From Altererythrobacter xiamenensis (GTDB taxonomy: Bacteria > Pseudomonadota > Alphaproteobacteria > Sphingomonadales > Sphingomonadaceae), in contig CAMDSM010000005.1 of NCBI GenBank assembly GCA_945906905.1, forward strand, positions 1 through 32,301: DNA of 32,301 nt, read 5' to 3'. Under the pieces are notes generated by a model. The model did no database searches. It was not told where the DNA came from and saw nothing but the letters and a program-made list of their open reading frames with translations. Below are positions 811 to 19,804 of the stretch, piece after piece. The position numbers were made by a program, and so were the translations under genes. Numbering within the stretch: position 1 is the first letter of the stretch; every line of letters starts with the position of its first letter.

Positions 811-1731
811 ATGTCCACCACGCGACTCGACCCAGAAGGTTATTGCCCGGCCAACGATCATCCGGACTGGAACCAGAGTTTCTACTTCAATTTTTATGAT
901 CCGGTGCAAAAGGCCGGCGGGTTCATCCGTGTCGGCATTTTGGAGAACCGGAAAGAGGCAAATCTTTGGTTCGTGTTCTTTCGCGATGGACGGCCGCTGT
1001 TTTCCCGGCTGAATCTCAATCTGCCCTATACGACCGAACGGCTGACCGGAGGGGTAACACTGGCCGGGGTTACTCTGAAGGCACTCGAGCCGCTCAAGTC
1101 TGCTGCGGTGACATTCGATGAACCCCAGTTCAAAGTAAACCTGAAGTGGGGCGCGATCCTGCCGATGACCGACAGCATCGAATTATCGGCGTCGGGTGCA
1201 GATGATGCGTTTGCAAAGGAGATGTCGCACTATCATCCCGAAGGTACTTGCCAGGTAACCGGAACGATCACCCTGCGCGATGGGGAGACCATCGTGATCG
1301 ATGCCAAAGGCTTTCGCGACCTCTCGTTTGGCCCGCGCAATTGGGACTACATGCGCCACTATCGCCTCGCTTGGCCGATCTTTGACAATGGCCTGGCGAT
1401 TGTTGCGGTTCACGGCTTTTCGACCAGTGGTGGCGACAACTATATGCGCATGGTCGGCAAGAACGGCAAATGGATCGCCGTCACCGACATCAAGGAGCGG
1501 ATCGTCTTCGAGGACGATGACATGACGATGCGTTCGGGTGAATGGTCGGTGACCGATGCCGATGGCGATGTGCACGAATTCACCAGCCGGAGGATTTTCC
1601 GCTGGATGTTCCCGCTCGATACATTCGTGGTAACCGAACATATGATGGAATACACACTGGCCGATGGCACCAAGGGTTATGGTCTGGGTGAATGTGGCTT
1701 CCGCTTCCCGTGGTCGGGCAACGGTGAATGA
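811..1731 (+). CDS. Lipocalin-like (AttH/CrtC-fold; DUF7064/DUF7065-like) protein
   Basis: 306-aa ORF. Shares the pattern HxExxCxVxGxIxLxDG...GFRDLSFGPRNWD with the 6766-7749 product (GFLVRDHSWGPRVWG). ATGA overlap with the next gene. Confidence 0.6.
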   Translation: MSTTRLDPEGYCPANDHPDWNQSFYFNFYDPVQKAGGFIRVGILENRKEANLWFVFFRDGRPLFSRLNLNLPYTTERLTGGVTLAGVTLKALEPLKSAAVTFDEPQFKVNLKWGAILPMTDSIELSASGADDAFAKEMSHYHPEGTCQVTGTITLRDGETIVIDAKGFRDLSFGPRNWDYMRHYRLAWPIFDNGLAIVAVHGFSTSGGDNYMRMVGKNGKWIAVTDIKERIVFEDDDMTMRSGEWSVTDADGDVHEFTSRRIFRWMFPLDTFVVTEHMMEYTLADGTKGYGLGECGFRFPWSGNGE

Positions 1732-2954
1732 GCGCGCCAAGCCTTCGCCACAGCGCCTATCCGCTGATCGACAAGGCCCGGCCTAGCGCCGAATGGATCA
1801 ATCTGCTGCGCGACCGCTTCCCGACCGAACGCGAATGGGACCGTATCCTGACTGCCAAGCAGCAACGGCGGGCAGGGCCAGGCTATTCCCCGATTCCGGT
1901 TGCCGACATTGTCGCGCGGCTGGAGACGATGCTGCGTCACGAATTGTCGGAAACTTTCACTATCAGCGATGCCAAATGGCTGGCGGGTGGCGCGTCGAAA
2001 CTGCAAATTGCCTTCTGGCTCGAGTGGAACAAGCCCGGTGTCGGACAGACCCGCGAGCGAATGGTGCTGCGGATGGAGCCGCCCGAATCCGCGGTCGAAA
2101 CCAGCCGTCTGCGCGAATTCGAGATATTGGGCGCGATGAAGGGCGTACTGTCCGTACCCGATGTTTACTGGGTCGATGCCGACGCAACCTTCATGCAATA
2201 TCCGGCGCTAATCTGCGGCTTCGTGAACGGCGTGACCAAACCGAGCGGTGCCACCAGCGCTGTCACCGGGATCGGGATCAACTTCGGCCCGGCACTACGC
2301 GCGCCGATTGGCCAACAGGTCGTGCGCGACATGGCGATCATGCACAAATGGGATTGGGCCTCCGCAGGGCTGAAATCATTCGATTCGCCTGCGCTCGGCA
2401 CCCAGGCCGTGGAATGGAACCTTAATCACTGGGGCCGGGTGTGGGAGGAGGACGGCAACGAAGAAGTGCCGTTGATGACCGAACTGTTTTTTTGGCTCAA
2501 GGCCAATATGCCGCCGGTCGACCGGATATCCCTCACTCACAACGATTTCCGCTCGGGCAACTTCCTGTTCGACGAGGCAACGCAACAGATCACCGCGTGG
2601 CTGGACTGGGAACTTGCCCACCTCGGCGACCGGCATCAGGAACTGGGCTTCTTCGCAGTCGAAAATATGGGCCATTTGAGCGAGGATGGCTCGCAGCTTT
2701 TGTCGCACGGATTGTTGCCAATCGACGCCATGCTCGAAGCCTATGAGCGTGAGAGCGGCTTGCCGGTCAATCTCCGCGCCGTCGAATACTACCGCGTCTT
2801 TTTCTGTTACCGCGCGGCGGTGATCATCCTTGGTACATGCGTCCGTGCAGCGCGCGGCGGCAAGACGCATCAGGATTTGACCGTCGCCTGGCTGTCAGCC
2901 TTTGCCTTCCGCAACCTTGAAGAAGCGCGTGCGGTTGTCGAGAGGATCGGTTGA
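1728..2954 (+). CDS. APH-family phosphotransferase (aminoglycoside/choline/acyl-CoA kinase-like)
   Basis: Brenner-type motif LTHNDFRSGNFLFDE and metal-binding AWLDWELAHLGD. ATGA translational overlap with the upstream gene. Confidence 0.9.
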   Translation: MSAPSLRHSAYPLIDKARPSAEWINLLRDRFPTEREWDRILTAKQQRRAGPGYSPIPVADIVARLETMLRHELSETFTISDAKWLAGGASKLQIAFWLEWNKPGVGQTRERMVLRMEPPESAVETSRLREFEILGAMKGVLSVPDVYWVDADATFMQYPALICGFVNGVTKPSGATSAVTGIGINFGPALRAPIGQQVVRDMAIMHKWDWASAGLKSFDSPALGTQAVEWNLNHWGRVWEEDGNEEVPLMTELFFWLKANMPPVDRISLTHNDFRSGNFLFDEATQQITAWLDWELAHLGDRHQELGFFAVENMGHLSEDGSQLLSHGLLPIDAMLEAYERESGLPVNLRAVEYYRVFFCYRAAVIILGTCVRAARGGKTHQDLTVAWLSAFAFRNLEEARAVVERIG

Positions 2955-2955
2955 A

Positions 2956-3492
2956 ATGGAACTTCGCCCAGAATATCTCCTGCCAGTCATCGCCAAGGCG
3001 CTGCAGGATGTCGTGCTTCCCGTCCTCGATGACCATCAGCAAGTGGCTCAGGAACAATTGAAACTCGCTATCGGCTTTCTCAATATCATGGCGCAAAACG
3101 GGCCGCTGCAATTCGCGTTTGACGTCGACGAACTGCGCCGACTTACCGATCATGCCAAAGCGTTGCGCGACATCGTGGGTGCCAGCGCCGCGAGCGCTGC
3201 CACCATCGAGGCGGCCGAAGCGGCTGGTGAAGCTGTCGGCATCGACCCGGCAGAAATCGTCACCGCAACACGGCAATTGCGCCTCGGCGTCACCGACTTG
3301 ATCAAACGGGGTCATGCCAAAGGCGACAAGGCACTCGACGCAAGCATTTTCGGCCTCGTCAACGAATTCTCGCGCATCCAACTTGATCGTGAGCGCGCCT
3401 GGGTGTTGCCGATGGGGTTCGAGAATGGGCAGGACGCGGTCCCATCGATTGCCAGCCAGCTGGGTTTGCCAGATTCGGTCGCGTCTGACTAA
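2956..3492 (+). CDS. Small helical kinase-associated protein (DUF6285/LvaB-like helper, tentative)
   Basis: ATG at 2956, one base after the kinase stop (TGAAATG); the track start at 2902 lies inside the kinase gene. N-terminus MELRPEYLLPVIAKALQDVVLPVLDDHQQVAQEQLKLAIGFLNIMAQ parallels the 4734 product and the N-terminus of the 5268 product. Confidence 0.7.
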   Translation: MELRPEYLLPVIAKALQDVVLPVLDDHQQVAQEQLKLAIGFLNIMAQNGPLQFAFDVDELRRLTDHAKALRDIVGASAASAATIEAAEAAGEAVGIDPAEIVTATRQLRLGVTDLIKRGHAKGDKALDASIFGLVNEFSRIQLDRERAWVLPMGFENGQDAVPSIASQLGLPDSVASD

Positions 3493-3564
3493 TTTGTCGA
3501 AAATCACGATTCTTCGGTTTGCTGACGTAGATAGAATACAACGAAATCGAGAGAGGACACCGCG

Positions 3565-4737
3565 GTGGCGCAATTGGAATCCGATCACCCGGCAGTGCCA
3601 GATTGGCGCGGGGACATGGAGCCACACCTGCTGGCGATGCTCGAAACCAAGCACGCACGCCAGGGCAAGTGCGGATACAAGCCGCGCGAAACGCAGGACG
3701 TTGCCGAGCGGCTGGGTCGCTTGCTCAGCGCGCACGGCGTGCGGGGCCATGCGCATAATGTCCGCCGGATGGGCGGCGGCGCTTCCAAGGAGCAGTTCCT
3801 GTTTGAACTGATCGATCCCGCAAGTGGCGCATCCGAGCAACTGGTGCTGCGGATGGACCCGCTCGAAGGCATCATCGAAACCTGCCGCACGCGCGAGGCG
3901 CAAGTGCTCGCGGTGATCGGTGGCACCGTGCCCGCCCCGCCAGTCGCCTATGTCGATGGTGATGGGCGGTATATGGGCCAGCCGGCGATGGTCACCGGCT
4001 TCGTGCACGGCGCTACCAAGCCGCGCGATTCCACCTCGGGCCCTTCGGGAGTAGGCATCGTGATCGGCGAGCGCGCCTCGGCCGCGCTGATCCCGCAATA
4101 TCTCGACAACCTCGTTGCTATCCATGGTTTGGACTTCGCCGACATCGATCTTTCCACTTATGCGGTGCCGCTGGCCGGGACCAATCAGGCGGCGCTGTGG
4201 CAGCTCAATTTCTGGCAGCGGGTGCTGGAAGACGATGCGATCGATCCCTCCCCGCTGCTCACCTACACCGCCTGCTGGCTGCGCGATCGCGCGCCTGTGT
4301 GCACAACACCCGTTCTGCTTCACGGCGATTACCGGCTCGGGAACTTCATGTTCGACGAGGACACGCTGGAGATGACCGCCGTGCTCGACTGGGAACTGGC
4401 GCACTTCGGCGATTTCCACGAGGACGTCGCCTATGCCCTTGAGCCGCTATTCTGCAGCCGCGATGCGCAAGGGGAGCCGCTGGTTGCCTCAATGATGCAG
4501 GTGAGCGCCTATCTCGACGGTTATACGCAGCGTTCGGGCCGCGTCATCGATCGGCAAGTGCTTCTGTGGTATCAGGTTCTCACCGGCTTCAAGCTGTCTT
4601 TGATGAACTTTGCCTCAGGCGCGCGCGCCGCACGCGATGGCACCAACCACCAGAGCGCGTTTCTGGGCTACCTCGCCGCCTGCCATGTTGGACTTTCTGC
4701 CAACATGTGCCGCTTGCTCGAAGGAGAAGGCGCATGA
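3565..4737 (+). CDS. APH-family phosphotransferase
   Basis: LLHGDYRLGNFMFDEDTLEMTAVLDWELAHFGD. GTG start at 3565 preceded by GAGAGGAC. Confidence 0.91.
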   Translation: MAQLESDHPAVPDWRGDMEPHLLAMLETKHARQGKCGYKPRETQDVAERLGRLLSAHGVRGHAHNVRRMGGGASKEQFLFELIDPASGASEQLVLRMDPLEGIIETCRTREAQVLAVIGGTVPAPPVAYVDGDGRYMGQPAMVTGFVHGATKPRDSTSGPSGVGIVIGERASAALIPQYLDNLVAIHGLDFADIDLSTYAVPLAGTNQAALWQLNFWQRVLEDDAIDPSPLLTYTACWLRDRAPVCTTPVLLHGDYRLGNFMFDEDTLEMTAVLDWELAHFGDFHEDVAYALEPLFCSRDAQGEPLVASMMQVSAYLDGYTQRSGRVIDRQVLLWYQVLTGFKLSLMNFASGARAARDGTNHQSAFLGYLAACHVGLSANMCRLLEGEGA

Positions 4738-5252
4738 CACCGAGCATCGAAGTGCGGCTGGAAAGCGTTCTCCACGGCCTGCGCGACGTCATTTTTCCCG
4801 CGATCAACCCGGACGAGGCGCTCGCGGTTGAACAATCCGGGCTCATCATTGCGCAGCTCTCGATGCTGGTGCAGCAGCTGCCCTATGCCGACCGCTACTA
4901 CCGGCTGTGCCGGGACGACGCGCGCAGCACCGCCGCCGCCATCGTGCAGGATGCTGCGGGAGGTCCGCGCAGCCGTCCGGTAGCCTGTGAGCTTGAAGCG
5001 CACTTGACGAAAGAGGGCACAGGCGACCCCCATGCCGACTATCTTGCGCTCGCAGGAGCTATCGCAGCGCTGACGATCGCCGTCGCTGAGGATGCCGAAC
5101 CTGCCTGGCACGCGCGCGTCAATGCCGTCGTCCTTGCCTTTTCGATCCGACAAAACCGCCGCGAGCGCGTGTGGTTCAAGGACGCCGGGTTTGATCCCGA
5201 TCCCGCAGCACTGCCCGATCTGGCGACCATGTGCGCCGCTTCGGTGGCGTGA
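4734..5252 (+). CDS. Small helical kinase-associated protein (paralogue of 2956-3492)
   Basis: ATG at 4734 overlaps the kinase stop (ATGA), with AAGGAG just upstream. MTPSIEVRLESVLHGLRDVIFPAINPDEALAVEQSGLIIAQLSMLVQQ... The track start at 4566 is too far upstream. Confidence 0.7.
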   Translation: MTPSIEVRLESVLHGLRDVIFPAINPDEALAVEQSGLIIAQLSMLVQQLPYADRYYRLCRDDARSTAAAIVQDAAGGPRSRPVACELEAHLTKEGTGDPHADYLALAGAIAALTIAVAEDAEPAWHARVNAVVLAFSIRQNRRERVWFKDAGFDPDPAALPDLATMCAASVA

Positions 5253-5267
5253 GCGGGAGATTGCGCA

Positions 5268-6764
5268 GTGAAGATTACCGACAACGCAACATATCTCCGG
5301 CTCGCTCAGCATACACTGAACAGCAAGATCGCGCCCGAACTGACATCTGGCGACGGGCAGGCTGCGGCAGCCATGCTCGCTCAGGTGCTCGACGAACTGC
5401 TCAAGCGCGAGACCGGTTCATCTGCATTGCTCGCCGATCAGGTGGCGGCAGGCGAGTGTTTGGTGGATCGGCTTGCTGACTTCGCCGCCGGGAAAGAAGT
5501 GGCCGTGACCTTACCAGAGATTTCTCCGAGCCAAGGCACTGGCTTTACCACGCTCGCCGCGCAGCATGACGCGTTGACCGCACGGATCGCGGCGTTGGCC
5601 GATTCGATGGCTGGCTACCGCGAACACCTGCCAGCCGTGGCGCAGGACGCCCTTTCCGCGCTACTGCTCGACGTCGCGCTTTGGGACCAGCACTATCCGC
5701 TGACCCAGCGCGACATGGCGGTGCCCGAGGGGGTGCCAGTTGCAGTCCCGGCGGGCGCACCACTTTCGCGCGACTTGCTGGAAGCCTTCCTTCGCAGCGC
5801 CCACCCCGATGGCGCGGCGGTGAGCGTACTCGCTATGCAGCCGATACCGGGCGGTTTTGGCAAACAGACCTTTCGCATCCGTATCCGCGAGGCCAACGGT
5901 GCCGAGCGCGCGCTGATTGTGCGCAAGAGCGATCCAGTGCCGATGGTACGCAAGGGCGCATTCCTGATCGACCATGAATTCCACCTGCTGCGCGACCTTT
6001 ACTCCACCGGCATACTTCCGCTGGCCGAGCCACTTTGGCTGGCCAAAGATTTTCCCGGGGTCGATGCCGATTTCTACGTGATGCAGGAGTTGCCGGGCAC
6101 TGTACCCAGCTCGTTCATGGGCGCGGCCAATGCCGCCATTCCTGAAGGTATTATCCTACAGTTGGCCGAGCACATGGCACGGCTACACCGCATGGATATG
6201 TCCTGCCTTTCCGGCTTTCTCGACCGTTTCGAAAGCCCAGCGGTTGCCACTGACACAATCGAAAGCTGCTATCGCCGTCAGATCGCCGAGTGGAAGCACT
6301 ATTACCGTCAGGCCGGCCACTTGCCCTCCCCGTTTGTCACCTATCTGCTCGATTGGCTGGACCGGAACGTGCCTTCAGACCAGCGTCGTCCGGTGCTGGT
6401 CCATGGCGATCTCAACATCCATAATGTGCTGGCCGAGGACGGGCACATCACGGGCATTCTGGATTGGGAATGTGCGATGATCGGCGCTCCCGAACAGGAT
6501 CTGGCCTATGTCCGCCCGATCCTGTCACAGCATATCGAATGGGACCGTTTCGTTGCCCACTACCGCGCCAGCGGCGGGCTGCCTGTGAACGCCGCAACTA
6601 TGAACTTCACCATGGCCTTTTCCGCGATGCGGCTATGCATCGTGTTCAACAAGGGTGTGCGCAACCTGCAGGACCGTGCCCATCAGGACATCCGCTATGC
6701 CGTCATCGACCTAAGCCTTACGCCCGAATTCATGAAGCAGGCGATGGCCTGCACCACCGGCTGA
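5268..6764 (+). CDS. Fusion: N-terminal helper-like helical domain + C-terminal APH-family kinase domain
   Basis: About 150 N-terminal residues (MKITDNATYLRLAQHTLNSKIAPELTSGDGQAAAAMLAQVLDELLKRE...) resemble the standalone helpers. C-terminal kinase motifs: LVHGDLNIHNVLAEDGHITGILDWECAMIG. Confidence 0.85.
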   Translation: MKITDNATYLRLAQHTLNSKIAPELTSGDGQAAAAMLAQVLDELLKRETGSSALLADQVAAGECLVDRLADFAAGKEVAVTLPEISPSQGTGFTTLAAQHDALTARIAALADSMAGYREHLPAVAQDALSALLLDVALWDQHYPLTQRDMAVPEGVPVAVPAGAPLSRDLLEAFLRSAHPDGAAVSVLAMQPIPGGFGKQTFRIRIREANGAERALIVRKSDPVPMVRKGAFLIDHEFHLLRDLYSTGILPLAEPLWLAKDFPGVDADFYVMQELPGTVPSSFMGAANAAIPEGIILQLAEHMARLHRMDMSCLSGFLDRFESPAVATDTIESCYRRQIAEWKHYYRQAGHLPSPFVTYLLDWLDRNVPSDQRRPVLVHGDLNIHNVLAEDGHITGILDWECAMIGAPEQDLAYVRPILSQHIEWDRFVAHYRASGGLPVNAATMNFTMAFSAMRLCIVFNKGVRNLQDRAHQDIRYAVIDLSLTPEFMKQAMACTTG

Positions 6765-6765
6765 C

Positions 6766-7749
6766 ATGCCGCCCGAAATCGATGATCGCCCGCATCAACC
6801 GGATGATCAGGAAGGAACCCGATCAGTGCCCGAAATGCCTCCGCCCAGCGCCGTCCTCCCCGAACATGCTTTCCGCCACAAGCTGACACTCGAAGGGCGT
6901 GAATCGCTCGCGCACATCCTTTTGATGCCCGAGCACAATATCGCCGGCTTCATCTACCCCACCATGCTGGGAACCGGCGTTGCCAAGTCAACGGCATGCT
7001 TTTTCAGCCCAGATTTCCCGGAACAGATAGTTGAAGTGGTCGAAGGCCCGGTGGCCGACGACATGAATTTTGACGACTGGCGCCATGGCCCGCTGCACAT
7101 GGAAATTGTCGAACCGCTCAAGGCGGTCAATATCGCCTGGAATGGCCAGCGTATCCACTTCAATGGTGCGTTCACCGCCACCCATCCGGCCTATGGGTTC
7201 AGTTCGCATCCGCGCGGCAATCCGCCCTATTTCGGCGATGATCGCACCGAACAGCATGGGCGCGTGATCGCCGATCTCGAACTCGATGGGCGCAAGCTGC
7301 ATCATGAGGGCTTCCTGGTGCGCGACCACAGCTGGGGCCCGCGCGTCTGGGGGCTCAACCAGCATTACAAGTGGATCCATGCCACCACCGGCGACAGCTC
7401 GATGCATTTCTTCGAGATGCAGGCTTCCGGTCGGACCGAGCTGCGCGGATTTCTGTTCAAGGACGGCGAGATGCGGCATATTGACCGGGTCGATTATGAA
7501 TTCGTCTACGACGCAGACATGTTGCAGAAGACCTTCAACGTCACGGTGACTGACACGAGCGGCCGCCAGACGCACATCGCCTTCACCATGTTCGGGATAT
7601 TGACATCGTCGCACGATCCAAAAACCTTGATCAACACGGGCTGCGCGACACTGGACTTCGATGGCAAAGCGGGTGTGGGTGTATGCGAATTCGCCTGGAA
7701 CAAGGACTATTTCGACTTCGCGAAAACCTACGTAGAAAAGTTCGGATGA
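6766..7749 (+). CDS. Lipocalin-like (AttH/CrtC-fold; DUF7064/DUF7065-like) protein
   Basis: GRVIADLELDGRKLHHEGFLVRDHSWGPRVWG motif; same family as 811-1731. The true start may be GTG at 6826 (AGGAAGGA upstream). Confidence 0.6.
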   Translation: MPPEIDDRPHQPDDQEGTRSVPEMPPPSAVLPEHAFRHKLTLEGRESLAHILLMPEHNIAGFIYPTMLGTGVAKSTACFFSPDFPEQIVEVVEGPVADDMNFDDWRHGPLHMEIVEPLKAVNIAWNGQRIHFNGAFTATHPAYGFSSHPRGNPPYFGDDRTEQHGRVIADLELDGRKLHHEGFLVRDHSWGPRVWGLNQHYKWIHATTGDSSMHFFEMQASGRTELRGFLFKDGEMRHIDRVDYEFVYDADMLQKTFNVTVTDTSGRQTHIAFTMFGILTSSHDPKTLINTGCATLDFDGKAGVGVCEFAWNKDYFDFAKTYVEKFG

Positions 7750-7784
7750 CGCGGATGATTGGAGACGGGCATGGTGCGTAAAAC

Positions 7785-8936
7785 ATGAGTCAGACACTTG
7801 CCGAGCGGATCAACGCAGCATTCGCCGCCGAACAGGCCGCGCCGCTTGTGGCAAGGACGCGAGATGATATTCCGCGTTCGTATGATGCGATCAGCGATGA
7901 ATGGCTGACTTCAGTCTTGTGCGGCGATGTGCCGGGTGCCTCGGTGGTCAGCCATCGCCTCGGACCACCCGACGATGGCACCAACAACCGCCGCCGCATT
8001 TTCGTGGATTACAATCCGGCTGGACAGGGTGCGAACCTGCCTGCCAGCGTGTTCTGCAAGGCAACCTTCGGCCTGCCCAACCGCCAGATGCTTGGCCATT
8101 CCGGCGGAGTGTTGTGCGAAGTGACTTTCAACAATCATGCGCGCCAGTTGCTCGATTTCGAAGCACCGCGAGCCCTGCTCGCCAACTACGATCCAGTCAG
8201 CTTCGCATCGATTGTGGTGTTCGAGGACTTTGGCGAACGCGCCACATTCTGTTCAGAAGAAACCCGCGTCGATCAGGCCTTCGCGCGCGCGCAGCTGGAC
8301 ATCCTGGCGCGATTGCACGGCCGGTTTGCCGGAGCGCCCGAGCTGGCCGGAGTGCTCGCCGTGTTGCCGACGTGGTACGATCGCTTCCACAATCTTGCGA
8401 CGTTTCATCTGGAAGAATCGTGCGCTGCCGGGGTTGACGCCGCAGAAGCCTTCCTGCCCCCCGAACTGTTCGCCCGGCGTGCGCAAATCTGGCCTGCGAC
8501 ATTGCGCTCGCTGGAACTCCTGCGCGACCTGCCACTGACCTTGTGCCATGGCGATGTCCATCTCAAGAACTGGTATCAGTGCGATGACGGCAGATTGGGC
8601 CTGGGCGACTGGGGGGTGACGCATCGCGGACATTGGGCGCGCGACCTCGCCTACACGCTGACAACCGCACTGACGGTTGCGGATCGGCGGGCTTGGGAAG
8701 CCGATCTGGTCGCTTACTATCTGGATAGACTGGCGGCCGAGGGTGGCCCGCGCGAGCCTATGGATTCGGCCATGCGCGCTTACCGGCTTTCGCTTCCCAG
8801 CGCTTTCGCCTTCTGGACGCTGACCCTGAAACCGGACCCGGCCTTTCCCGACATGCAGCCGGTTGGCACGGCAAAGGTGTTCATCGAACGCATCGGTCAG
8901 GCCATGGCCGATCACAATGCGATCGATGTCCACTGA
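7785..8936 (+). CDS. APH-family phosphotransferase (divergent)
   Basis: LTLCHGDVHLKNWYQCDDGRLGLGDWGVTHRGHWARDLAY. Confidence 0.85.
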   Translation: MSQTLAERINAAFAAEQAAPLVARTRDDIPRSYDAISDEWLTSVLCGDVPGASVVSHRLGPPDDGTNNRRRIFVDYNPAGQGANLPASVFCKATFGLPNRQMLGHSGGVLCEVTFNNHARQLLDFEAPRALLANYDPVSFASIVVFEDFGERATFCSEETRVDQAFARAQLDILARLHGRFAGAPELAGVLAVLPTWYDRFHNLATFHLEESCAAGVDAAEAFLPPELFARRAQIWPATLRSLELLRDLPLTLCHGDVHLKNWYQCDDGRLGLGDWGVTHRGHWARDLAYTLTTALTVADRRAWEADLVAYYLDRLAAEGGPREPMDSAMRAYRLSLPSAFAFWTLTLKPDPAFPDMQPVGTAKVFIERIGQAMADHNAIDVH

Positions 8937-9060: not shown

Positions 9061-11196
9061 TTACACATCGGCCTTTTGGGCGATCCGGTAGCGGTGGAGC
9101 ACGGGCTCGGTATAGCCGTTGGGCTGCCTAGCGCCTTCGAAAACAAGCTTGCGTGCGGCTTCCAGCGCCAGGCTTCCTGTTTTTCCAGCCATGGGCCGAT
9201 AAGCGGAATCACCAATATTTTGCTGGTCCACCCTGGCCGCCATCCGCAAGAGCGCAGTATCCACCTGACCTTCCGAGACAATACCGTGCAACAGCCAGTT
9301 GGCCACGTGCTGGCTCGAAATGCGCAAGGTAGCCCGGTCCTCCATCAGCGCCACGTCGTGGATGTCGGGCACCTTGGAGCAGCCGATCCCCTGATCGATC
9401 CAGCGCACCACATAACCTAGGATGCCTTGCAGGTTGTTGTCCAGTTCCTCGGCAATTGCGGCTGGCGACCAGTCTGATGGATTGCCCAGCGGAACCTGCA
9501 AGAGTGCCGTCAGCGGCGGGACGGACTGCTGTGCCACCGCTTGTTGTCGGGCGGCAACGTTGCATTGATGATAGTGCGTTGCGTGCAGGGTGGCCGCCGT
9601 GGGAGACGGCACCCAGGCCGTGCTCGCTCCTGATGCCGGATGAGCACCTTTTATCGCCAACATGTCAGCCATCAAGTCGGGTGCAGCCCACATACCTTTG
9701 CCGATCTGGGCGCGACCGATAAAGCCGCAGCCGATGCCGATAGCCACGTTGCGGGCCTCGTAGGCGGAAATCCAGGCCGCCTGCTTGATCTCACCCTTGC
9801 GGGCAAATGGTCCGGCCAGCATCGAGGTGTGGATCTCGTCGCCGGTGCGGTCGAGGAAGCCGGTGTTGATGAAGAAGATCCGGTCTTTCACAGCAGCGAT
9901 GCAGGCGGCGAGATTGGCACTGGTGCGCCGCTCCTCGTCCATCACGCCGATCTTGATCGTGTGCCGGGCGAGGCCGAGCAGGTCTTCAACCGCGTCGAAC
10001 ACCTCGTTGGCAAACGCTGCTTCTGCCGGACCGTGCATCTTGGGCTTGACCACATAGATGCTGCCAGCGCGGCTGTTGCGGAAGCGGCTGTGCCCGCGCA
10101 AATCGTGCAACCCGATCAGGCAGGTCAGCGCCGCATCGAGCAGGCCTTCGAAAACCTCTTCGCCAGCGCCATCCAAAATCGCCGGTGTGGTCATCAGATG
10201 GCCGACATTGCGAACCAGCAGCAGGCTGCGGCCGGACAGGACCAGTTCGCTGCCATCGGTTGCATGATAGGACCGGTCAGGGGCGAGCGCTCGCGCCATG
10301 GTCTTGCCGTTCTTGGAAAAATGCTCGGTCAGATCACCGCGCATCAGGCCAAGCCAGTTGCGGTAGGCCGCAACCTTGTCAGCCGCATCGACCGCTGCCA
10401 CCGAATCCTCGAAATCGACAATCGTGCTCAGGGCACTTTCCAGCACCACGTCGGCAATTCCGGCGGGGTGCTGAGAACCGGCCGGATGATCCCGATCAAA
10501 CCTGACCTCGATATGCAGCCCGTGGTTGCGCAGCAGGACGGCGTGCTTGGCCCGGCCGACCAGTTGCTGCGGATCGACCAGCACGATCAGATCGGGGTCC
10601 GTCAGGTCGCGCCACGAGCCATTGGCCAGCGGCACGGCCTGATCGAGAAACGCCATCGCCCACGCAATCACCCGCTCGCCCCGTCGCGGGCAATAGGGTC
10701 CCGGGGCAGGCAAGTCACCCAAGGCATCGGTGCCGTAGAGCGCATCGTAAAGGCTGCCCCAGCGCGCATTGGCGGCGTTGAGGGCGAAGCGCGCATTGAG
10801 CGCAGGCACCACCAGTTGCGGCCCGGCGGTACAGGATATCTCCGGATCGACATTGCCCGTGGTGATCGCAAAGGCAGGCGGATCGTCGACCAGATAGCCG
10901 ATCTGCCGCAGATAGGCTTCGGGCGCCCCGGTGCCCGAAGCCGGATTGGCCCGATGCCAATTGTCGATCAGGTTTTGCAACCGGTCGCGTTCGGCCAGCA
11001 GCTGGCGGTTGCGCGGCGTGAAGCGGGCAAACAGCGCAGCCAGACCCGACCAGAATGCGTCCTGCCCCACACCGGAGCCGGGCAGAACCTCGTCCTCGAC
11101 GAACCGGACGAGACATTCGGCGACCGCCAGGCCCGCCCGGCTTACCCGCGCCGAAGCGAGCGGTTCGTCATGGGTTGGCGCTGCGGTACTGGCCAT
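9061..11196 (-). CDS. glcB: Malate synthase G
   Basis: 711 aa. [72 protein letters not shown]. Consensus RBS GGAGGT upstream of the ATG. Confidence 0.97.
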
Positions 11197-11207
11197 CGCC
11201 TACCTCC

Positions 11208-11360
11208 TTATCCCAACCGGCCGAGGCGGTGGTGCAGGTTGACGTATTTCTGCGTGTCAGCTTCGCCATCGTGGACGCGGATATAGTCGACCACCGCCTT
11301 GCGGATCAGGCGGAAGTCTTCGGTTGAAAAAACGGGGCGGGCCCGGGTCGGTTCACTCAT
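11208..11360 (-). CDS. Small ORF (50 aa) between aceA and glcB
   Basis: Below the track's length cutoff. Reverse strand reads MSEPTRARPVFSTEDFRLIRKAVVDYIRVHDGEADTQKYVNLHHRLGRLG*, with AAGGA upstream. Its TAA is directly followed by the glcB RBS (TAAGGAGGTAGGCGATG). Confidence 0.72.
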   Translation of the reverse strand: MSEPTRARPVFSTEDFRLIRKAVVDYIRVHDGEADTQKYVNLHHRLGRLG

Positions 11361-11391
11361 CTCTGGTTCCTTTCGTGGTGGTGCGGGCGGA

Positions 11392-12990
11392 TCAGGCCGC
11401 CGCGAACTGGTTCATGGTGTTGTGCTCGCCGCCGGCCTTGAGTGCGGCTTCCCCGGCGAAGGCTTCCTTGTGATCGTCGCCAATGTCGGACCCGGACATG
11501 GCCTGATGGCGAACGCAGGCAATCCCCTGCCTGATCTCCTCGCGCTGCACAGTGCGGACATAGCCCAGCATGCCCTCGTCACCGAAATAGCGCTTGGCCA
11601 GATTGTCGGTGCTGAGCGCGGCCGTGTGATAGGTCGGCAGGGTGATCAGATGATGGAAGATGCCAGCCTCGCGGGCCGAATCTGCCTGGAACGAGCGGAT
11701 CCGATCATCAGCCTCCTGCCCCAGCGCGGTTTCGTCAAACTCCGCGCTCATCAGCCGCGCCCGGTCATAGTCCGCCAGATCGCGGCCCTGTTCCGCCCAG
11801 TCATCGAACACCTGGCAACGGAAATTGAGCGTCCAGTTGAAGCTGGGCGAATTATTGTAGACCAGCTTGGCATTGGGCACCGCCTCGCGGATCCGCCGGA
11901 CCATGCCGCTGATCTGGCCGATGTGCGGCTTTTCGGTTTCGATCCACAGCAAGTCAGCGCCGTTCTGCAGGCTGGTGATACAATCGAGCACCACGCGATC
12001 CTCGCCCGATCCGGGGCGGAATTGGAACAGGTTGGACGCGAGGCGCTTGGGGGCCAGCAGCTTGCCATTACGGCTGATCAACACCTGGCCATTGCCAATC
12101 TGGCTGGGGGTGATCTCCTCGCCGTCGAGGAAGCTGTTGTACTGGTCGCCAAGATCACCCGGCTCGCGGCTGAAGGCGATCTGCTTGGTCAGGCCCGCGC
12201 CCAGCGAATCGGTGCGGGCAACGATGATCCCGTTCTCCACCCCCAGTTCGAGGAAAGCATAGCGGATGGCGCGGATCTTCTGCAGGAAGTCCTCGTGCGG
12301 CACGGTCACCTTGCCGTCCTGGTGGCCGCATTGCTTCTCGTCGGAAACCTGATTTTCGATTTGCAGCGCGCAGGCGCCCGCCTCGATCATTTTGCGCGCC
12401 AGCAGATAGGTCGCCTCGGCATTGCCAAAGCCGGCGTCGATATCGGCAATGATCGGCACGACATGGGATTCAAAATTGTCGATGGCCTGCTCAATCCGGC
12501 GGGCCTCCACCTCGTCACCGCGAGTGCGGGCAGCGTCGAGCTTGCGGAACAGATCGCCCAGTTCGCGCGCGTCGGCCTGCCGCAGGAAGGTGTAAAGTTC
12601 CTCGATCAGCGCCGGAACGCTTGTCTTCTCGTGCATGGACTGGTCGGGCAGCGGGCCGAATTCGCTGCGCAGAGCGGCGATCATCCAGCCCGAGAGATAG
12701 AGATAGCGGCCCTTGGTGGAGCCGAAATGCTTCTTGATGCTGATCAGCTTCTGCTGGCCAATGAACCCGTGCCAGCACCCCAGCGAGCGGGTGTAGTTGG
12801 CCGGATCGGCATCATAGGCGGCCATGTCCAGGCGCATGATCTGCGCGGTGTGGCGGGCAATGTCGAGAACGGTCTGGAAACGGTTCTGCAGCCGCATCCG
12901 TGTGGCCGCTTCGGCATCAATCCCGGCCCAGCTTTGGCCGCTGGCCGAAATGGTCTGCCGCAGTCCGGCGAGTGTGGAGTGGTAAGCCAT
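11392..12990 (-). CDS. aceA: Isocitrate lyase
   Basis: About 532 aa from MAYHSTLAGL. DIDAGFGNAEATYLLARKMIEAGACALQIENQVSDEKQCGHQDGKVTVPHEDFLQKIRAIR with the KQCGH signature variant. Confidence 0.97.
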   Translation of the reverse strand: MAYHSTLAGLRQTISASGQSWAGIDAEAATRMRLQNRFQTVLDIARHTAQIMRLDMAAYDADPANYTRSLGCWHGFIGQQKLISIKKHFGSTKGRYLYLSGWMIAALRSEFGPLPDQSMHEKTSVPALIEELYTFLRQADARELGDLFRKLDAARTRGDEVEARRIEQAIDNFESHVVPIIADIDAGFGNAEATYLLARKMIEAGACALQIENQVSDEKQCGHQDGKVTVPHEDFLQKIRAIRYAFLELGVENGIIVARTDSLGAGLTKQIAFSREPGDLGDQYNSFLDGEEITPSQIGNGQVLISRNGKLLAPKRLASNLFQFRPGSGEDRVVLDCITSLQNGADLLWIETEKPHIGQISGMVRRIREAVPNAKLVYNNSPSFNWTLNFRCQVFDDWAEQGRDLADYDRARLMSAEFDETALGQEADDRIRSFQADSAREAGIFHHLITLPTYHTAALSTDNLAKRYFGDEGMLGYVRTVQREEIRQGIACVRHQAMSGSDIGDDHKEAFAGEAALKAGGEHNTMNQFAAA

Positions 12991-13058
12991 TGTTCGATTC
13001 CTCAAAACGTGATGGCACCACTTGCCTCGGTTTGCAGGGATCGACGAGGGGGTTCGAT

Positions 13059-13115
13059 GTCCGATTGTCCAACTTTACAAAAAACTCTTGTATAGTTGTA
13101 TAGTTTGTCCGATTG
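13059..13115. promoter_or_regulatory. Putative operator region between divergent aceA and the ScfR-type regulator
   Basis: 10-bp direct repeat TGTCCGATTG at 13059-13068 and 13106-13115; tandem 8-mer TTGTATAG x2 at 13088-13103; AACTTTACAAA at about 13071. Confidence 0.5.
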
Positions 13116-13125
13116 CTTGATGCCT

Positions 13126-14520
13126 ATGGCACGTAAGACAATCTACATGGGGCCGCGCCTCAAGCGGCTGCGGCGCGAACTGCGGCTGACCCAGAACGAC
13201 ATGGCAACCGATCTGGAGATTTCGCCCAGCTATGTCGCCCTGCTGGAGCGCAACCAGCGGCCTGTCACGGCGGACCTGCTGCTCAAGCTGGCTTCGATCT
13301 ACCAAATTGATCTGGCCGACCTCGCCCACGGCGATGTTGAGCAAACGACGGGCAAGTTGCAGGCGATCCTGCGCCAGCCGTTCTTTTCCGAGATCGACCT
13401 GCCGGCGATCGACATTGCAGACATCGCCACCAGCTATCCCGGTTTTGCCGAAGCCATGCTCCGCCTGCATCAGGCGCATGAACAGGCCCAGTTGGCGCTG
13501 GCGATCCGCCGCGAGCGGGCAGAAGGCAGCACCGGTACACGCGAACCGGGCGAGGAAGTTGGCGCCTTTCTAGCCGCCCATCACAACAGCTTTGCCGAAC
13601 TCGATCACAGCGCCGAAACGCTGGCGGCAGAACTTGGCAGCGCGCAAGCCATGGCCTCCTACATCACCCGCGAGCACCAGATCCGCGTGGAATTCGTGGA
13701 GCCCGGCGCGATCCGGCAGGCCTTGCGGTTCTACGACTATCACCGCGCCCGCCTGTTGGTGAACGCCTGGCTGGGCGAAGCGGGGCGGCGGTTTCAGCTG
13801 GCGCTGCATATTGCCATGCTCGAACAGAACAAGACCATCGCCGCACTGATCGATCCCACACCCTTCGACAGTGCCAACGGGCGAATTATGGCCGAGCAGG
13901 CCTTGCGCAACTATTGGGCCGCCGCGGTACTCATGCCCTATGCGCCGTTCCTCGCAGCCGCCCGCCGCCTGCGCTATGATGTCGCAGCGCTGGCCGCGAC
14001 CTTTCAGGTCAGCTTCGAGCAGGTGGCACACCGGCTGACCACCCTACAGCAGGATGGCGCAAGCGGAGTGCCGTTTTTCCTGGTGCGCGTGGATCAGGCC
14101 GGGAACGTGTCGAAGCGGCTCGACGGCAGCGGCCTGCCCTTTGCCCGCATGGCTGGTGGCTGCCCCTTGTGGGCCGCCCACACCAGCTTCGCCCGCCCGG
14201 AGGAGGTGATCGCGCAACTGGTCGAACTGCCCGATGGACAGCGGTTTGTCACCGTGGCTCACTGCGCGTTCGCCGGCACAGGCGGTTTCGCCGCCCCGCG
14301 CAACCTGCGGGCGGTAGCGCTGACCTGCTCGGCCGAGCATCTCGACCAGCTTGTCTATGCCGATCACTTGTCCGCCACTGAGCCGACCGGCATCGGCATT
14401 TCCTGCCGTGTCTGCCATCGCCTCAATTGCATGGCCCGCTCAGCCCTGCCGATTGGCCGCGAAGCCTTGCCCGACACCTACCTCAGGCCGAGCACACCAT
14501 TTTCGTTCGAAGGTGAATGA
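13126..14520 (+). CDS. XRE-family HTH regulator of the short-chain fatty-acid/RamB type (HTH + ImmA/IrrE-like + C-terminal ScfR-like domain)
   Basis: N-terminal HTH MARKTIYMGPRLKRLRRELRLTQNDMATDLEISPSYVALLERNQRPVTADLLLKLA. C-terminal Cys-containing CRVCHRLNCMARSALPIG region. Divergent from aceA. Confidence 0.88.
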   Translation: MARKTIYMGPRLKRLRRELRLTQNDMATDLEISPSYVALLERNQRPVTADLLLKLASIYQIDLADLAHGDVEQTTGKLQAILRQPFFSEIDLPAIDIADIATSYPGFAEAMLRLHQAHEQAQLALAIRRERAEGSTGTREPGEEVGAFLAAHHNSFAELDHSAETLAAELGSAQAMASYITREHQIRVEFVEPGAIRQALRFYDYHRARLLVNAWLGEAGRRFQLALHIAMLEQNKTIAALIDPTPFDSANGRIMAEQALRNYWAAAVLMPYAPFLAAARRLRYDVAALAATFQVSFEQVAHRLTTLQQDGASGVPFFLVRVDQAGNVSKRLDGSGLPFARMAGGCPLWAAHTSFARPEEVIAQLVELPDGQRFVTVAHCAFAGTGGFAAPRNLRAVALTCSAEHLDQLVYADHLSATEPTGIGISCRVCHRLNCMARSALPIGREALPDTYLRPSTPFSFEGE

Positions 14521-15650: not shown

Positions 15651-15797
15651 GATCTGCCTGCTCCCTACGCTTGTTCGCGGGCTGTTATGCGAAAGCCGGC
15701 AAGCTGCCCTGCCTACCCAAAGGAGGGGGCAAGGGGGCAGCAAGGCATGATTACCTGCGGCATTCGCGCAGTCTGCGAAACGCGCAAGGAACAGCAG

Positions 15798-16898
15798 ATG
15801 GCATCAGGAACCGTCAAACTTCTAGCGGTCGGCGATCTGCAACTCATGACCCGAGAACCGCCCACGGATCTGTTCGCGCAAGCGGCGCCAGTACTCTCAG
15901 GCGCAGACGTGACTTTTGGCAATTGCGAATGGCCCTATGCCGAAGAGGCTGGCGACACCCACCCGGTAGAAGCGCATATCAACGACGATTTCGACGGCGG
16001 CGACCTGTTTGTCCCCGGCGCGCCCGAATGTATCGCCATGATGGGCGCGGCGGGATTCGATGTGATGAGTGTGGCCAACAACCACACTATGCACGGCGGT
16101 TATCGCGCGTTTGCGCGGACCCTCTCGCTGCTGATCGAAGCCGGCATTGCGCCCGTGGGCGGCGGCGACACGATTATCAGCGCCCGCCTGCCTGCAATTG
16201 TGGAACGCGTCGGCCACAAGATCGGCTTCCTCGCTTGCACTTCAGGATTCCTGCCCGGTGCTCACGCGGGACGGCGCACGCCGGGGATCGTGCCCCTGCG
16301 CCGCCATACCTATGCCGAAAACAACAGTTGGCACGATTGGGGTATCGAACCGGCAACGCGAACGCTGGTCAACCGCGACGACCTGGCCGCGATGGTCGAC
16401 AGCATCACGCAGTTGAAAGCAAAGGCCGATATCGTGGTGCTGAGCTGCCATTGGGGCATTCTCGAACATGTCTCGGCCATTGCCGACTACCAGCGCGAGG
16501 CGGCGCGGGCTTTTATCGATGCAGGCGCAGATCTGATCGTCAGCCAGGGGCCACTGCCGATAAAGGGGATTGAGGTCTATCGCGGCAAGGCGATCCTGTA
16601 TTGCATGGGCAAGTTTGCGATGATTTCCCCCTGGTCGCGTGCCGAGACACCATCGGGCATTTCAGCGCCGCTCCTCGATGAAACCAGCCGCGGTCTGGCC
16701 GCGTCAGTAACGATCACCGATGGCTCAATCACCAGCGTGCAGGTCATTCCGGTCTATCTTGGCAGCAGCGGGCGGCCCAATATTCTCGCTCCGGGCGACC
16801 CGAACTTTGCCGAGATCCTTGCCATCGTGGCAGAGCGCACCGCCGCTGCTGGCTTGAACGGCGTGATGGACGCGGACGGCCGGATCGCGCTGGGTTGA
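15798..16898 (+). CDS. CapA-family (PGA_cap, metallophosphatase-like) protein
   Basis: KLLAVGDLQLM...GADVTFGNCEWP...GFDVMSVANNHTMHGG...VVLSCHWGILEH...ADLIVSQGPLPIKGIEVYRGKAILYCMGKFAM. ATG at 15798 with AAGGA upstream. Confidence 0.85.
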   Translation: MASGTVKLLAVGDLQLMTREPPTDLFAQAAPVLSGADVTFGNCEWPYAEEAGDTHPVEAHINDDFDGGDLFVPGAPECIAMMGAAGFDVMSVANNHTMHGGYRAFARTLSLLIEAGIAPVGGGDTIISARLPAIVERVGHKIGFLACTSGFLPGAHAGRRTPGIVPLRRHTYAENNSWHDWGIEPATRTLVNRDDLAAMVDSITQLKAKADIVVLSCHWGILEHVSAIADYQREAARAFIDAGADLIVSQGPLPIKGIEVYRGKAILYCMGKFAMISPWSRAETPSGISAPLLDETSRGLAASVTITDGSITSVQVIPVYLGSSGRPNILAPGDPNFAEILAIVAERTAAAGLNGVMDADGRIALG

Positions 16899-16901: not shown

Positions 16902-17969
16902 ATGACGAACAACCAAACATCCGTGCCGACGGAGGAATTCGCCAGGCAGATCGGCCCCTGGCTTTCCGCGCGGCTGCCCGGCTTGCCGCCAGTCGCAATT
17001 GCCGAGCTGAGTGAACCGGCGCAAGGCTTTTCCAGCCGCACCATCCTGTTCACCGCGCGCTGGAATGACGGCAAGCGGGACGTGGAACGGCCCCTCGTCG
17101 CACGTGTCCAGCGCGACGTTGCCGTGCCGATGCTGGCCGACGTTTTTCATCAATGCCGGGTGATGCAGGCTGTCACCGCCAATTCTGCGGTCAACGTGCC
17201 GAAGATTAATTATGTGGAAGACGATCCGACCATTGTGGGGGCGCCGTTTTTCATCATGGAACGATTGTATGGCCGGGTGCCGCCTGATTTTCCCAGTTAC
17301 CATCAGCAAGGCTGGCTCGCCGAACTGGCACCGGCTCAGCGGACCCGCCTCTGGTGGAACGGCATCGAGGAAATGGCCCGTCTGCACCAGATCGACTGGC
17401 GCTGCTTCCCGTTTCTGGAGGATGCCGCCGCCACCCCGCCGGACGCAGTGTTCTATCTAGACCAGTTCCTAGGCAATTGGTTCGATTGGGCGCGCGATGG
17501 ACGCACGCATCCAGTTATTTCCGAAGCGTTGGCCTACCTCAAAGCGCATGCTCCCCCTCCAACTACTTCGGGGCTGGTATGGAACGACGCGCGGCTGGGC
17601 AACACGATGTACGGCGCCGACAGCGTCGCAGTTGTATCGCTGCTGGATTTCGAGGTGGCGACATTGGGGCCACCAGAAATCGATCTGGCGCACTGGGTCT
17701 ACCTTGACGAGGTGTTCAGCGAGAATTTCGGAGTGCCGCGGATTGACGGGCTGCCGCGCGATGCGGAGGCCGTGGCAGGGTTCGAGCGGATCTATCACCG
17801 GGCGATGCCGCAATTTAGCTTCTACATGGCTGTGGCCGCGCTCAAGATCCTGATCTTGTCGGTCCGCAGCTATGGCAACGATAAGGACACGGGTGCCCCG
17901 GCGCCGCTGCCAGATTTCCTGCTTGCCCGGCTGACCCATTATCTTGGCGAGTTCAAGGCGGGGCGCTGA
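16902..17969 (+). CDS. APH-family phosphotransferase (divergent catalytic loop)
   Basis: GLVWNDARLGNTMYGADSVAVVSLLDFEVATLGPPEIDLAHW. Starts 3 nt after the capA-like stop. Confidence 0.85.
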   Translation: MTNNQTSVPTEEFARQIGPWLSARLPGLPPVAIAELSEPAQGFSSRTILFTARWNDGKRDVERPLVARVQRDVAVPMLADVFHQCRVMQAVTANSAVNVPKINYVEDDPTIVGAPFFIMERLYGRVPPDFPSYHQQGWLAELAPAQRTRLWWNGIEEMARLHQIDWRCFPFLEDAAATPPDAVFYLDQFLGNWFDWARDGRTHPVISEALAYLKAHAPPPTTSGLVWNDARLGNTMYGADSVAVVSLLDFEVATLGPPEIDLAHWVYLDEVFSENFGVPRIDGLPRDAEAVAGFERIYHRAMPQFSFYMAVAALKILILSVRSYGNDKDTGAPAPLPDFLLARLTHYLGEFKAGR

Positions 17970-18093: not shown

Positions 18094-18534
18094 ATGTCAA
18101 TTGAAGCCAACAAGGCTGCCGTGCGTGGCTGGTTTGAAGCGGTCAACCACGGTGATGAAGCCGCCATACTGGAATCGACTGCAGAAGACTTCGTCTTTCT
18201 GACTATGGCGGTTGAGCCGGAATGGCTGCAATACAAGTGGGACCGCGTGCAGTTTTCCAAGGTGCCGGCCAACATGTCGACCGTGCTGACAGCGCCGATC
18301 CAGCTCAAGATCGTGGCCATGACGGCAGAGGACGACCGGGTTGCGGTGGAGGCGGAAACCGATTCCCAATTGCTCAACGGCCGCCGCTACAACAACGCCT
18401 ATCATTTCGTGTTCAAGCTGCGCGGCGGCAAGTTTACCGAAGTGCGCGAATACAGTTGCAGCCATCTGGCCCAGAACTGCTTCGGCGCGGTGACGCCCGA
18501 CGATCCTGCCGGAGCGACGATGGCCGAAGCCTGA
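18094..18534 (+). CDS. SnoaL-like / NTF2-fold protein
   Basis: MSIEANKAAVRGWFEAVNHGDEAAILESTAEDFVF...KIVAMTAEDDRVAVEAETDSQLLNGRRYNNAYHFVFKLRGGKFTEVREYSCS. Consensus-like RBS AAGGTGAGG. Confidence 0.85.
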   Translation: MSIEANKAAVRGWFEAVNHGDEAAILESTAEDFVFLTMAVEPEWLQYKWDRVQFSKVPANMSTVLTAPIQLKIVAMTAEDDRVAVEAETDSQLLNGRRYNNAYHFVFKLRGGKFTEVREYSCSHLAQNCFGAVTPDDPAGATMAEA

Positions 18535-18598
18535 CTATGTGGGGCTGATCATAGGGGGCGGCAATCGCCAGAACCCGGCACGAGATTGGAGAAATACG

Positions 18599-19804
18599 AT
18601 GCAAGCCGAAGCCTTGAACCTCCTGACCCGCACGATGGAAGCCCAACTTCTCAGGAAATCACAGCCCGAAGGCTATCCCTACCTGCCGCCTGTTCCATCA
18701 AGCCGCTATACCGACCCCGGGTTTGCCGGGCTGGAACGTGACGGGATGTGGATGAAGACATGGCTGCTGGCGGGCCATATTTCGGAACTGCCGACCGGCG
18801 GATCGTATTTTCTGTTTGAACAGCTCGACCAGTCGGTGATCATTTCACGCGGCAAGGATGGTGCGATCCGAGCTTTCTATAATGCATGCCGCCACCGTGG
18901 TTCGGCACTGCTGCTCCAGCAATCAGGCAAGGCTGCCCGGTTTGTCTGCCCTTACCATTCGTGGGGCTACTCGCTCGAAGGCGATTTGAAATCGGTCCCG
19001 GACCAGCATGATTTCCAATGCCTAGACAAGGCAGACAGCGGCCTCATTCCTGTCCGGTGCGATGTCAGCCGCGGATTCATTTACATCAATTTTGACCAGC
19101 AGGCCGGGCCGCTGGAGGATTTTCTCGCCCCGCAACTGCCGCAGACAGAGGGCTATCCAATCGACAAGATGGTCGTCAAACACCGCCTGCTGGTGGAGAT
19201 GGAGTGCAACTGGAAGATCGCCTATCACAATTTCTGCGAAATCTATCACGTCTCCACCTGCCATCCCAAGACCTTGTCCCCCTACCTCGATTCGCAGAGT
19301 TTCGTGATTGCCTTGCTCGCCAACGGGCACATGCGGTTTGCCACCCGCAAGAAGAAGGGCGATTCAATTTTCGGGCATGATTTGTACAAGCCGGACGACA
19401 TCGCCGATATCTTCCGCGAGGTCACCGTCGCCCTGCCAAGCTTCCCCAATGTGTTCTATTCGCTCGATCCAATCGGGTTCAATCTCCAGTCTTTCTGGCC
19501 GGCCGGACCGAACAAATCGGTCATGGAAGTGCGCATGATGGGCTGGGATGTCGATACCGAAGCAGACCGCACGCATTGGGAATCGATGAAGGGGCTAGTG
19601 GGCCATATCCTCGACGAAGACCTGCACTTGTTCGGGTCCATGCAGCGCAATCTGGCACAAGGGATCATCCCCGAACTGGTCCTGGGCTATCAGGAACGAG
19701 CGCTATACTGGTTCGAGGAAGAAATCGACCGGCGCATCGGCGTTGACAACATCCCCGAAACGCAGCGCGTCGCGCAAGTGCTTTCCGGACAGATGCAGCG
19801 CTGA
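18599..19804 (+). CDS. Rieske-type aromatic-ring-hydroxylating dioxygenase, large (alpha) subunit
   Basis: Rieske motif CRHRGSALLLQQSGKAARFVCPYHSWGYSL. Mononuclear iron region NWKIAYHNFCEIYHVSTCHP. Confidence 0.94.
   Translation: MQAEALNLLTRTMEAQLLRKSQPEGYPYLPPVPSSRYTDPGFAGLERDGMWMKTWLLAGHISELPTGGSYFLFEQLDQSVIISRGKDGAIRAFYNACRHRGSALLLQQSGKAARFVCPYHSWGYSLEGDLKSVPDQHDFQCLDKADSGLIPVRCDVSRGFIYINFDQQAGPLEDFLAPQLPQTEGYPIDKMVVKHRLLVEMECNWKIAYHNFCEIYHVSTCHPKTLSPYLDSQSFVIALLANGHMRFATRKKKGDSIFGHDLYKPDDIADIFREVTVALPSFPNVFYSLDPIGFNLQSFWPAGPNKSVMEVRMMGWDVDTEADRTHWESMKGLVGHILDEDLHLFGSMQRNLAQGIIPELVLGYQERALYWFEEEIDRRIGVDNIPETQRVAQVLSGQMQR

Follow-up and report, generated by a model that had tools for sequence, protein, structure and literature searches.

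Positions 811 to 8936 of contig CAMDSM010000005.1 of Altererythrobacter xiamenensis (GCA_945906905.1) hold eight intact + strand genes in a row, and the question they raise is what purpose they serve in a sphingomonad. Four encode APH-fold kinases and two encode beta-barrel proteins of the DUF7064/7065 type; the remaining two are copies of an all-helical helper protein without a Pfam family. A three-gene cassette of kinase, helper and DUF7064 protein is thus present twice, with further kinases added. The window analysed here is the entire contig (C5; 32,301 bp) of a genome of 2.73 Mb that is 87.5% complete. We propose that the cluster is an adenosine triphosphate (ATP)-dependent alcohol dehydration module, acting in the catabolism of a hydrophobic, imported, isoprenoid- or steroid-like substrate, and the probability that we attach to this proposal is roughly 0.6. 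Gene content, intact motifs, recurrence in other genomes, co-evolution of kinases and helpers, and the match of DUF7064 to a lyase in fold and motif are observed; from these we infer the enzymatic activities, the substrate class, the operon and the role of the helper.

Results

Layout of the cluster

A preliminary description of this DNA had recognised the eight-gene cluster, and open reading frames and Pfam scores (four APH, two DUF7064) bear it out. In Pfam terms the order is DUF7065+DUF7064, APH, none, APH, none, APH with an N-terminal extension, DUF7064 and APH (Table 1), and the successive spacings are -4, 1, 72, -4, 15, 1 or about 61, and 35 nucleotides. The four-nucleotide ATGA overlaps at 1728 and 4734 and the TonB receptor directly upstream, all reported before, are present, the receptor as the C-terminus that the contig end has left. 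Helper 1, previously begun at 2902, starts at 2956, one nucleotide after the stop of APH1. The single-nucleotide gap given at 6765 holds if the next gene starts at 6766; its closest relatives (308 amino acids) begin about 60 nucleotides later, which makes a GTG start near 6826 likely and the gap probably one of about 61 nucleotides. Four APH kinases lie within 7.2 kb, against 14 in the whole 2.73 Mb genome, and this density, together with the recurrence of the cassette across genera and phyla, argues that the cluster is more than a product of chance.

DUF7064 proteins and the 25-phosphosteroid lyase

Both beta-barrel proteins pass the DUF7064 (PF23212) cut-off of 24.7 bits, with 76.5 and 79.7 bits; on DUF7065 (PF23213, cut-off 27 bits) type a scores 48.6 bits and type b 21.6, under the cut-off. 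The AlphaFold model of the type b protein (DUF7064b) has a predicted local distance difference test (pLDDT) score of 90.5. Its five best PDB matches are all 25-phosphosteroid lyase (25-PSL; E 1e-14 to 1e-12, template modelling (TM) score 0.68-0.69), headed by 9G4C (Foldseek E 1e-14, TM 0.69, probability 1.00, 17% identity), and Diels-Alderases, kievitone hydratase and AttH follow at lower rank. The DUF7064 profile also detects the lyase 9FZN by sequence (E 2e-5); the mixed a-type DUF7064 profile alone gave no 25-PSL match in the PDB.

The match extends to an active-site motif. In the printed alignments the lyase reads RDRSWG in 9FZN and RNRSWG in 9G4C, and the Asp is also found in 9G2I. The entry 9G4C is a complex with phosphate and desmost-1,4-diene-3-one, and its change of Asp to Asn was presumably made to trap the product. 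The corresponding putative catalytic residues of the window are Asp170 in RDLSFGPR (type a) and Asp187 in RDHSWGPR (type b), and the motif Asp is aligned in 69 of 70 DUF7064 relatives. Judged from the alignments, the proteins formerly called "lipocalin-like" have the active-site motif of 25-PSL and, judged from the type b model, its fold. One DUF7064 protein (L127:613-1584) carries Asn for the motif Asp and is encoded beside two paralogues that keep it; it is possibly an inactive copy.

Kinases

The four cluster kinases score 41.7-103 bits on Pfam APH, for which the cut-off is 23.2 bits. All window kinases keep both the Asp and the Asn of the catalytic loop, in an HxDxxxxN motif that reads WNDxxxxN in a fifth kinase outside the cluster, and the Asp that binds metal, in a D-W/F motif. 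The motifs of APH1 (HNDFRSGN, LDWE) and APH2 (HGDYRLGN, LDWE) are intact; those of the fusion kinase are HGDLNIHN and LDWE, and those of APH4 are HGDVHLKN and GDW. The PDB relatives of APH1 are 3DXP, 9O56, ACAD11, 9FSG and Rv3168 (openly available literature yielded nothing on 9FSG or 9O56), and the fusion kinase matches the ACAD11 kinase at 1e-23. APH4 passes the ecdysteroid-kinase-like family PF02958 (EcKL) with 25.0 bits over a cut-off of 22, and Nevskia (L110) and Mycolicibacterium (L133) each have a related kinase (25-29%) less than 4 kb away from a DUF7064b gene.

In a tree of 90 kinases, those partnered by a helper fall into two clades, each with a support of 0.97-0.98, which join as sisters with weak support (0.15). 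The fusion kinases make up a third group, every member of which lies beside DUF7064, and the 32 kinases partnered by DUF6285 form a monophyletic clade of their own (support 0.995) that excludes the window kinases. The N-terminal domain of the fusion kinase, about 165 amino acids long and helical by sequence, had been read as a fused helper; the hhalign probability of that relationship is below 1%, and neither a helper nor a DUF6285 domain is supported there.

Helper family

Helper 1 and helper 2 are homologous (phmmer 2e-7), in agreement with the single family assumed earlier, and neither matches Pfam, DUF6285 included. The AlphaFold model of helper 2 (pLDDT 94, predicted TM score 0.83) has six helices, and a PDB fold search with it returned no match at E <= 0.001. 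Upstream neighbours were available for 46 distinct helpers, of which 44 stand directly behind a same-strand kinase, mostly with a 4-nucleotide overlap or a spacing of at most 3 nucleotides and never with a gap above 22; for the remaining two the kinase is on the opposite side. DUF7064 is encoded within three genes of 36 of the 46. Some of these loci were fetched via DUF7064 or the kinase, and searches with the helper only give the same layout.

Distances between kinases correlate with those between their helpers (r=0.94, 44 pairs); the value for kinases and DUF7064 is 0.40, a lower bound since types a and b were mixed. By virtue of this kinase-helper correlation, the data fit a helper that would be an obligate partner subunit of its kinase. 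Compared with DUF6285, the family of LvaB, the helper reaches an hhalign score of 27.8 over 56 collinear columns (probability 26-34%), which exceeds every one of 40 column shuffles (maximum 21.5) and both reversals, and a remote relationship between the two families is possible but unproven.

Recurrence of the cassette

The preliminary description had made its case depend on the three families occurring together in other genomes, and they do, as the helper loci above and the following samples indicate. When DUF7064 was the only criterion of sampling, 21 of 34 loci had a kinase within 1.5 kb, which compares with 14 APH kinases in the whole 2.73 Mb host genome; 11 of the 34 had already been fetched before, and the other 23 gave a kinase in 14. 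The loci with a kinase span Sphingomonadales, Gammaproteobacteria and Actinomycetota. Helper searches were positive for 4 of 150 relatives and, across the order, for 12 of 399 genomes. DUF7064 is generally rare (4 of 398 Pseudomonadota genomes) and strongly expanded in some genomes, with 13 genes in Novosphingobium colocasiae, nine in Patulibacter minatonensis and eight in N. lentum.

Aquisediminimonas sediminicola has the DUF7064-kinase-helper cassette three times, several Sphingobium genomes have two in tandem, and a 92 kb stretch of a single Novosphingobium resinovorum contig holds seven helper genes. The cassette also occurs in Nocardia higoensis, and on plasmids of Sphingomonas sp. MM-1 (pISP1), Sphingopyxis macrogoltabida, N. 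resinovorum (pSA1) and Rhodococcus ruber. The plasmid copies match the cassette of the window, lack the fused kinase, and are annotated as 'phosphotransferase family protein / hypothetical protein' with no function described. The genes around cassettes encode TonB receptors, cytochromes P450, alcohol and aldehyde dehydrogenases, coenzyme A (CoA) ligases and thiolases. The contig of N. resinovorum (126,817 bp; L081-L086) is a catabolic island where the seven helpers are joined by some nine DUF7064 genes and by several genes for TonB receptors, and the corresponding region is found on pSA1 of strain SA1 (L098). Genes of the tyrosine phosphatase family lie beside the cassette on two plasmids (L097, L100).

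The window is the union of parts that are found separately in close relatives. Receptor, APH2, helper 2 and DUF7064b recur together in N. lentum (L102; APH2 80%, helper 74% and DUF7064b 89% identical) and in strain EhC05 (L104), and a metagenome-assembled genome (MAG) from Umea (L103) has receptor, DUF7064a, APH1, helper 1 and DUF7064b. The fusion kinase and DUF7064b are paired in N. colocasiae (L109; 81% and 83% identical), and DUF7064b occurs by itself in three MAGs. For the receptor directly upstream, identity is 53-73% to the counterparts in N. lentum, the Umea MAG and EhC05, and 57-60% to those in Sphingobium (L117-119, L128) and N. rosa (L112).

Genomic context

Among the same-genus genomes listed, neither DUF7064 nor the helper has a match, which makes the cluster accessory. 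It abuts the 3' side of the malate synthase block, and this block of malate synthase, isocitrate lyase and RamB-like genes is syntenic in three same-genus genomes, where unrelated genes replace the cluster. The comparison suggests that the cluster was gained or lost at a variable flank. By the same synteny the contig, which comes from a MAG, fits the genome, and this speaks against contamination.

Table 1. Features of the window, with the evidence for each assignment.
Feature	Coordinates	Strand	Evidence
TonB-dependent receptor, C-terminal 219 amino acids, cut by contig end	1..660	+	PF00593 2e-16
DUF7065+DUF7064 protein, type a, 306 amino acids, putative phospholyase	811..1731	+	DUF7064 3e-21, DUF7065 1e-12
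APH1, APH-fold small-molecule kinase, APH1-type clade	1728..2954	+	PF01636 5e-19
Helper 1, 178 amino acids, partner of APH1	2956..3492	+	no Pfam match; family alignment and profile
APH2, APH-fold kinase, APH2-type clade	3565..4737	+	PF01636 3e-20
Helper 2, 172 amino acids, partner of APH2	4734..5252	+	4-nucleotide overlap with APH2
Two-domain protein, N-terminal domain and APH kinase (fusion kinase)	5268..6764	+	PF01636 2e-29, residues 191-437
DUF7064 protein, type b, putative phospholyase	6766..7749	+	DUF7064 3e-22
APH4, divergent APH / ecdysteroid-kinase-like kinase	7785..8936	+	PF01636 1.5e-10
Malate synthase G and isocitrate lyase (glyoxylate-shunt genes; strand applies to these two) and RamB/ScfR-like regulator	9061..14520	-	
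PGA_cap-domain protein	15747..16898		
Fifth APH kinase	16902..17969		
SnoaL-like and Rieske oxygenase genes	18094..19804		
Ser/Thr protein kinase fragment, roughly the N-terminal third of the domain only	20288..20857		
Formate-dehydrogenase-like molybdoenzyme, DUF4345 protein and tryptophan-halogenase family protein, in a row	21496..25888		

The fifth APH kinase lies between the PGA_cap-domain gene and the SnoaL-like and Rieske oxygenase genes. The molybdoenzyme at 21496 was considered as a steroid C25 dehydrogenase and rejected, as its score is 75 bits for type II dimethyl sulfoxide reductase, where the model's cut-off is 985, and 205 bits for formate dehydrogenase. Another contig of the same genome, C9 (1-5000), carries a further cassette that the contig end cuts: it begins inside a helper gene, and DUF7064, alcohol dehydrogenase, enoyl-CoA hydratase and CoA ligase genes come next. 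Its downstream block is similar to a block of N. resinovorum (L083).

Discussion

In the dehydration module as we envisage it, the TonB receptor would bring in a bulky hydrophobic substrate, a probable role for it. APH1 and APH2, each with its own helper, and the two other kinases would phosphorylate hydroxyls of this substrate or of its breakdown intermediates. The DUF7064 proteins would be C-O lyases in which the RDxS(W/F)GPR aspartate promotes the loss of phosphate; the alkene left behind would then enter ordinary oxidation by genes elsewhere, for example those of contig C9. If 25-hydroxysteroid kinase (25-HSK) and 25-PSL are a guide, the preferred targets are probably hydroxyls of isoprenoid- or steroid-like molecules that are tertiary or for other reasons difficult to dehydrate. 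The P450 and alcohol/aldehyde dehydrogenase neighbours suggest that the substrate is hydrophobic, alicyclic or isoprenoid; openly available literature yielded nothing on the substrate of such cassettes. The presence of four kinases and two lyases suggests several hydroxyls or several related substrates, and the two cassettes and extra kinases may each serve different ones.

This chemistry has a single experimental precedent. In Sterolibacterium denitrificans, 25-HSK and 25-PSL convert a C25 tertiary alcohol to an alkene, with one ATP spent (PMC8449060, PMC7411048, PMC11061730). An APH-type kinase and a lyase of DUF7064 fold with the same motif aspartate are common to both systems, and only for Sterolibacterium has the formation of an alkene from an alcohol with phosphate as leaving group been shown. 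The window differs in that the kinase gene lies next to the lyase gene, both are duplicated and a helper gene accompanies them, in that there are four kinases, and in belonging to a sphingomonad; the 2021 paper on S. denitrificans reported no lyase candidate near the kinase gene.

LvaABC and ACAD10/ACAD11 (PMC12440821, PMC11342911) have a related kinase domain and follow the same logic of phosphorylation and then elimination, and in LvaABC, as in the window, a small partner gene comes right after the kinase. The preliminary description had taken the hydroxyacyl-CoA kinases of this group as the nearest precedent. On such a model the window kinases would act on hydroxyacyl-CoA esters (4- or other), the helper would be the equivalent of LvaB, an acyl-CoA dehydrogenase encoded elsewhere would eliminate the phosphate, and DUF7064 would be accessory. 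APH1, APH2 and the fusion kinase do match the ACAD11 kinase domain, the helper occupies the position of LvaB and is possibly a remote DUF6285 relative, and DUF6285 kinases with DUF7064 nearby exist (L046, L047). The kinases belong to separate clades, however, and an acyl-CoA dehydrogenase lies within three genes of none of 44 helper kinases against 25 of 31 DUF6285 kinases, a contrast that is conservative since the DUF6285-kinase loci are shorter. The partner in the window is not DUF6285, which has no match anywhere in the host genome, the cluster has no CoA ligase, and DUF7064, present instead of the dehydrogenase, has a phospholyase fold. For these reasons the model appears unlikely to us, and, given the missing acyl-CoA dehydrogenase, the elimination carried out by LvaC in the Lva pathway probably falls here to DUF7064. 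A compact LvaABC-like set does occur in Sphingomonadales (L138-L163), where DUF6285 is often fused to the kinase C-terminus beside an acyl-CoA dehydrogenase.

For ecdysteroid-kinase-like enzymes, a role in detoxification or storage has been proposed. Phosphorylation in the window could serve the same ends, with DUF7064 as a hydratase, isomerase or hydrophobic carrier, given that the lipocalin-like two-barrel fold is also that of kievitone hydratase, AttH and Diels-Alderases, that APH4 exceeds the EcKL cut-off, that two plasmid cassettes have tyrosine-phosphatase-like genes, and that some DUF7064 genes have no kinase neighbour. The best match in structure and in sequence is nevertheless the phosphosteroid lyase, the mutated aspartate included, and both the catabolic neighbourhood and the TonB receptors 53-73% identical that travel with the cassette speak for degradation, so that we regard this role as quite improbable. 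Aminoglycoside or macrolide kinases, suggested by the APH fold, or a chance assembly of unrelated paralogues can hardly account for the locus. The best window-kinase score on resistance models is 33.4 bits, for APH(3') with a cut-off of 205, the lowest among these models, and the three-gene unit is conserved across genera; the earlier preference for catabolism over antibiotic resistance is borne out by these scores and by the catabolic gene neighbours.

Several observations weigh against the dehydration module. The likeness of the DUF7064 fold to the lyase comes with only 15-17% identity and concerns the type b model only, type a being related to 25-PSL through the shared Pfam domain; moreover, the same fold also serves hydratases and pericyclases, which makes phosphate elimination uncertain. 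Recombinant 25-HSK is active without a helper, and the window kinases are not the closest to 9FSG, which we tentatively take to be 25-HSK. The molybdenum-dependent steroid C25/C26 hydroxylases that produce the tertiary alcohol in Sterolibacterium were looked for within the window and are absent from it. Some DUF7064b genes are without a kinase (L106-L108, L113) or without an adjacent one (L110), and in the window no consensus promoter and no strong terminator delimits the cluster as an operon.

The two-gene layout of a kinase and a DUF7064-family protein is also that of Rv3168-Rv3169 in Mycobacterium tuberculosis. Both families are detected from the window: 3ATS, which we take to be the structure of Rv3168, is found with APH2 at 3e-11, and the NCBIfam Rv3169 model matches DUF7064b at 2e-12. 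Rv3169 is distant, its model giving the window proteins 32.6 and 46.6 bits against a cut-off of 150, and we know of no helper gene for this pair. Rv3168-Rv3169 form an operon repressed by the TetR regulator Rv3167c (PMC5340868). A wider interpretation, for which we would offer slightly less than even odds, is that aerobic bacteria use the cassettes as a general and modular means of ATP-dependent dehydration, diversified for many substrates, with the helper as a new obligate subunit of a kinase subfamily and Rv3168-Rv3169 as a kinase/phospholyase pair of this type.

The system had been put forward as a candidate undescribed one. This does not hold for the kinase/lyase chemistry, which is known; new, as far as we found, are the connection between DUF7064 cassettes and this chemistry, the helper family, the tandem and modular organisation seen in aerobes, and the correspondence in layout with Rv3168-Rv3169.

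Implications

Our results provide a predicted function for the domain of unknown function DUF7064/7065 and for an unnamed helper family. The ATP-driven removal of tertiary hydroxyls, known from anaerobic sterol degradation, would be extended to sphingomonads and actinobacteria and, by gene layout, to M. tuberculosis. It would also account for many genes annotated as 'phosphotransferase family protein' or 'hypothetical protein' on catabolic plasmids and islands, with nine places for kinases in one plasmid. If the proposal is true, these kinases are misannotated where they carry resistance-like labels, and the DUF7064 proteins would represent a new class of alkene-forming enzymes.

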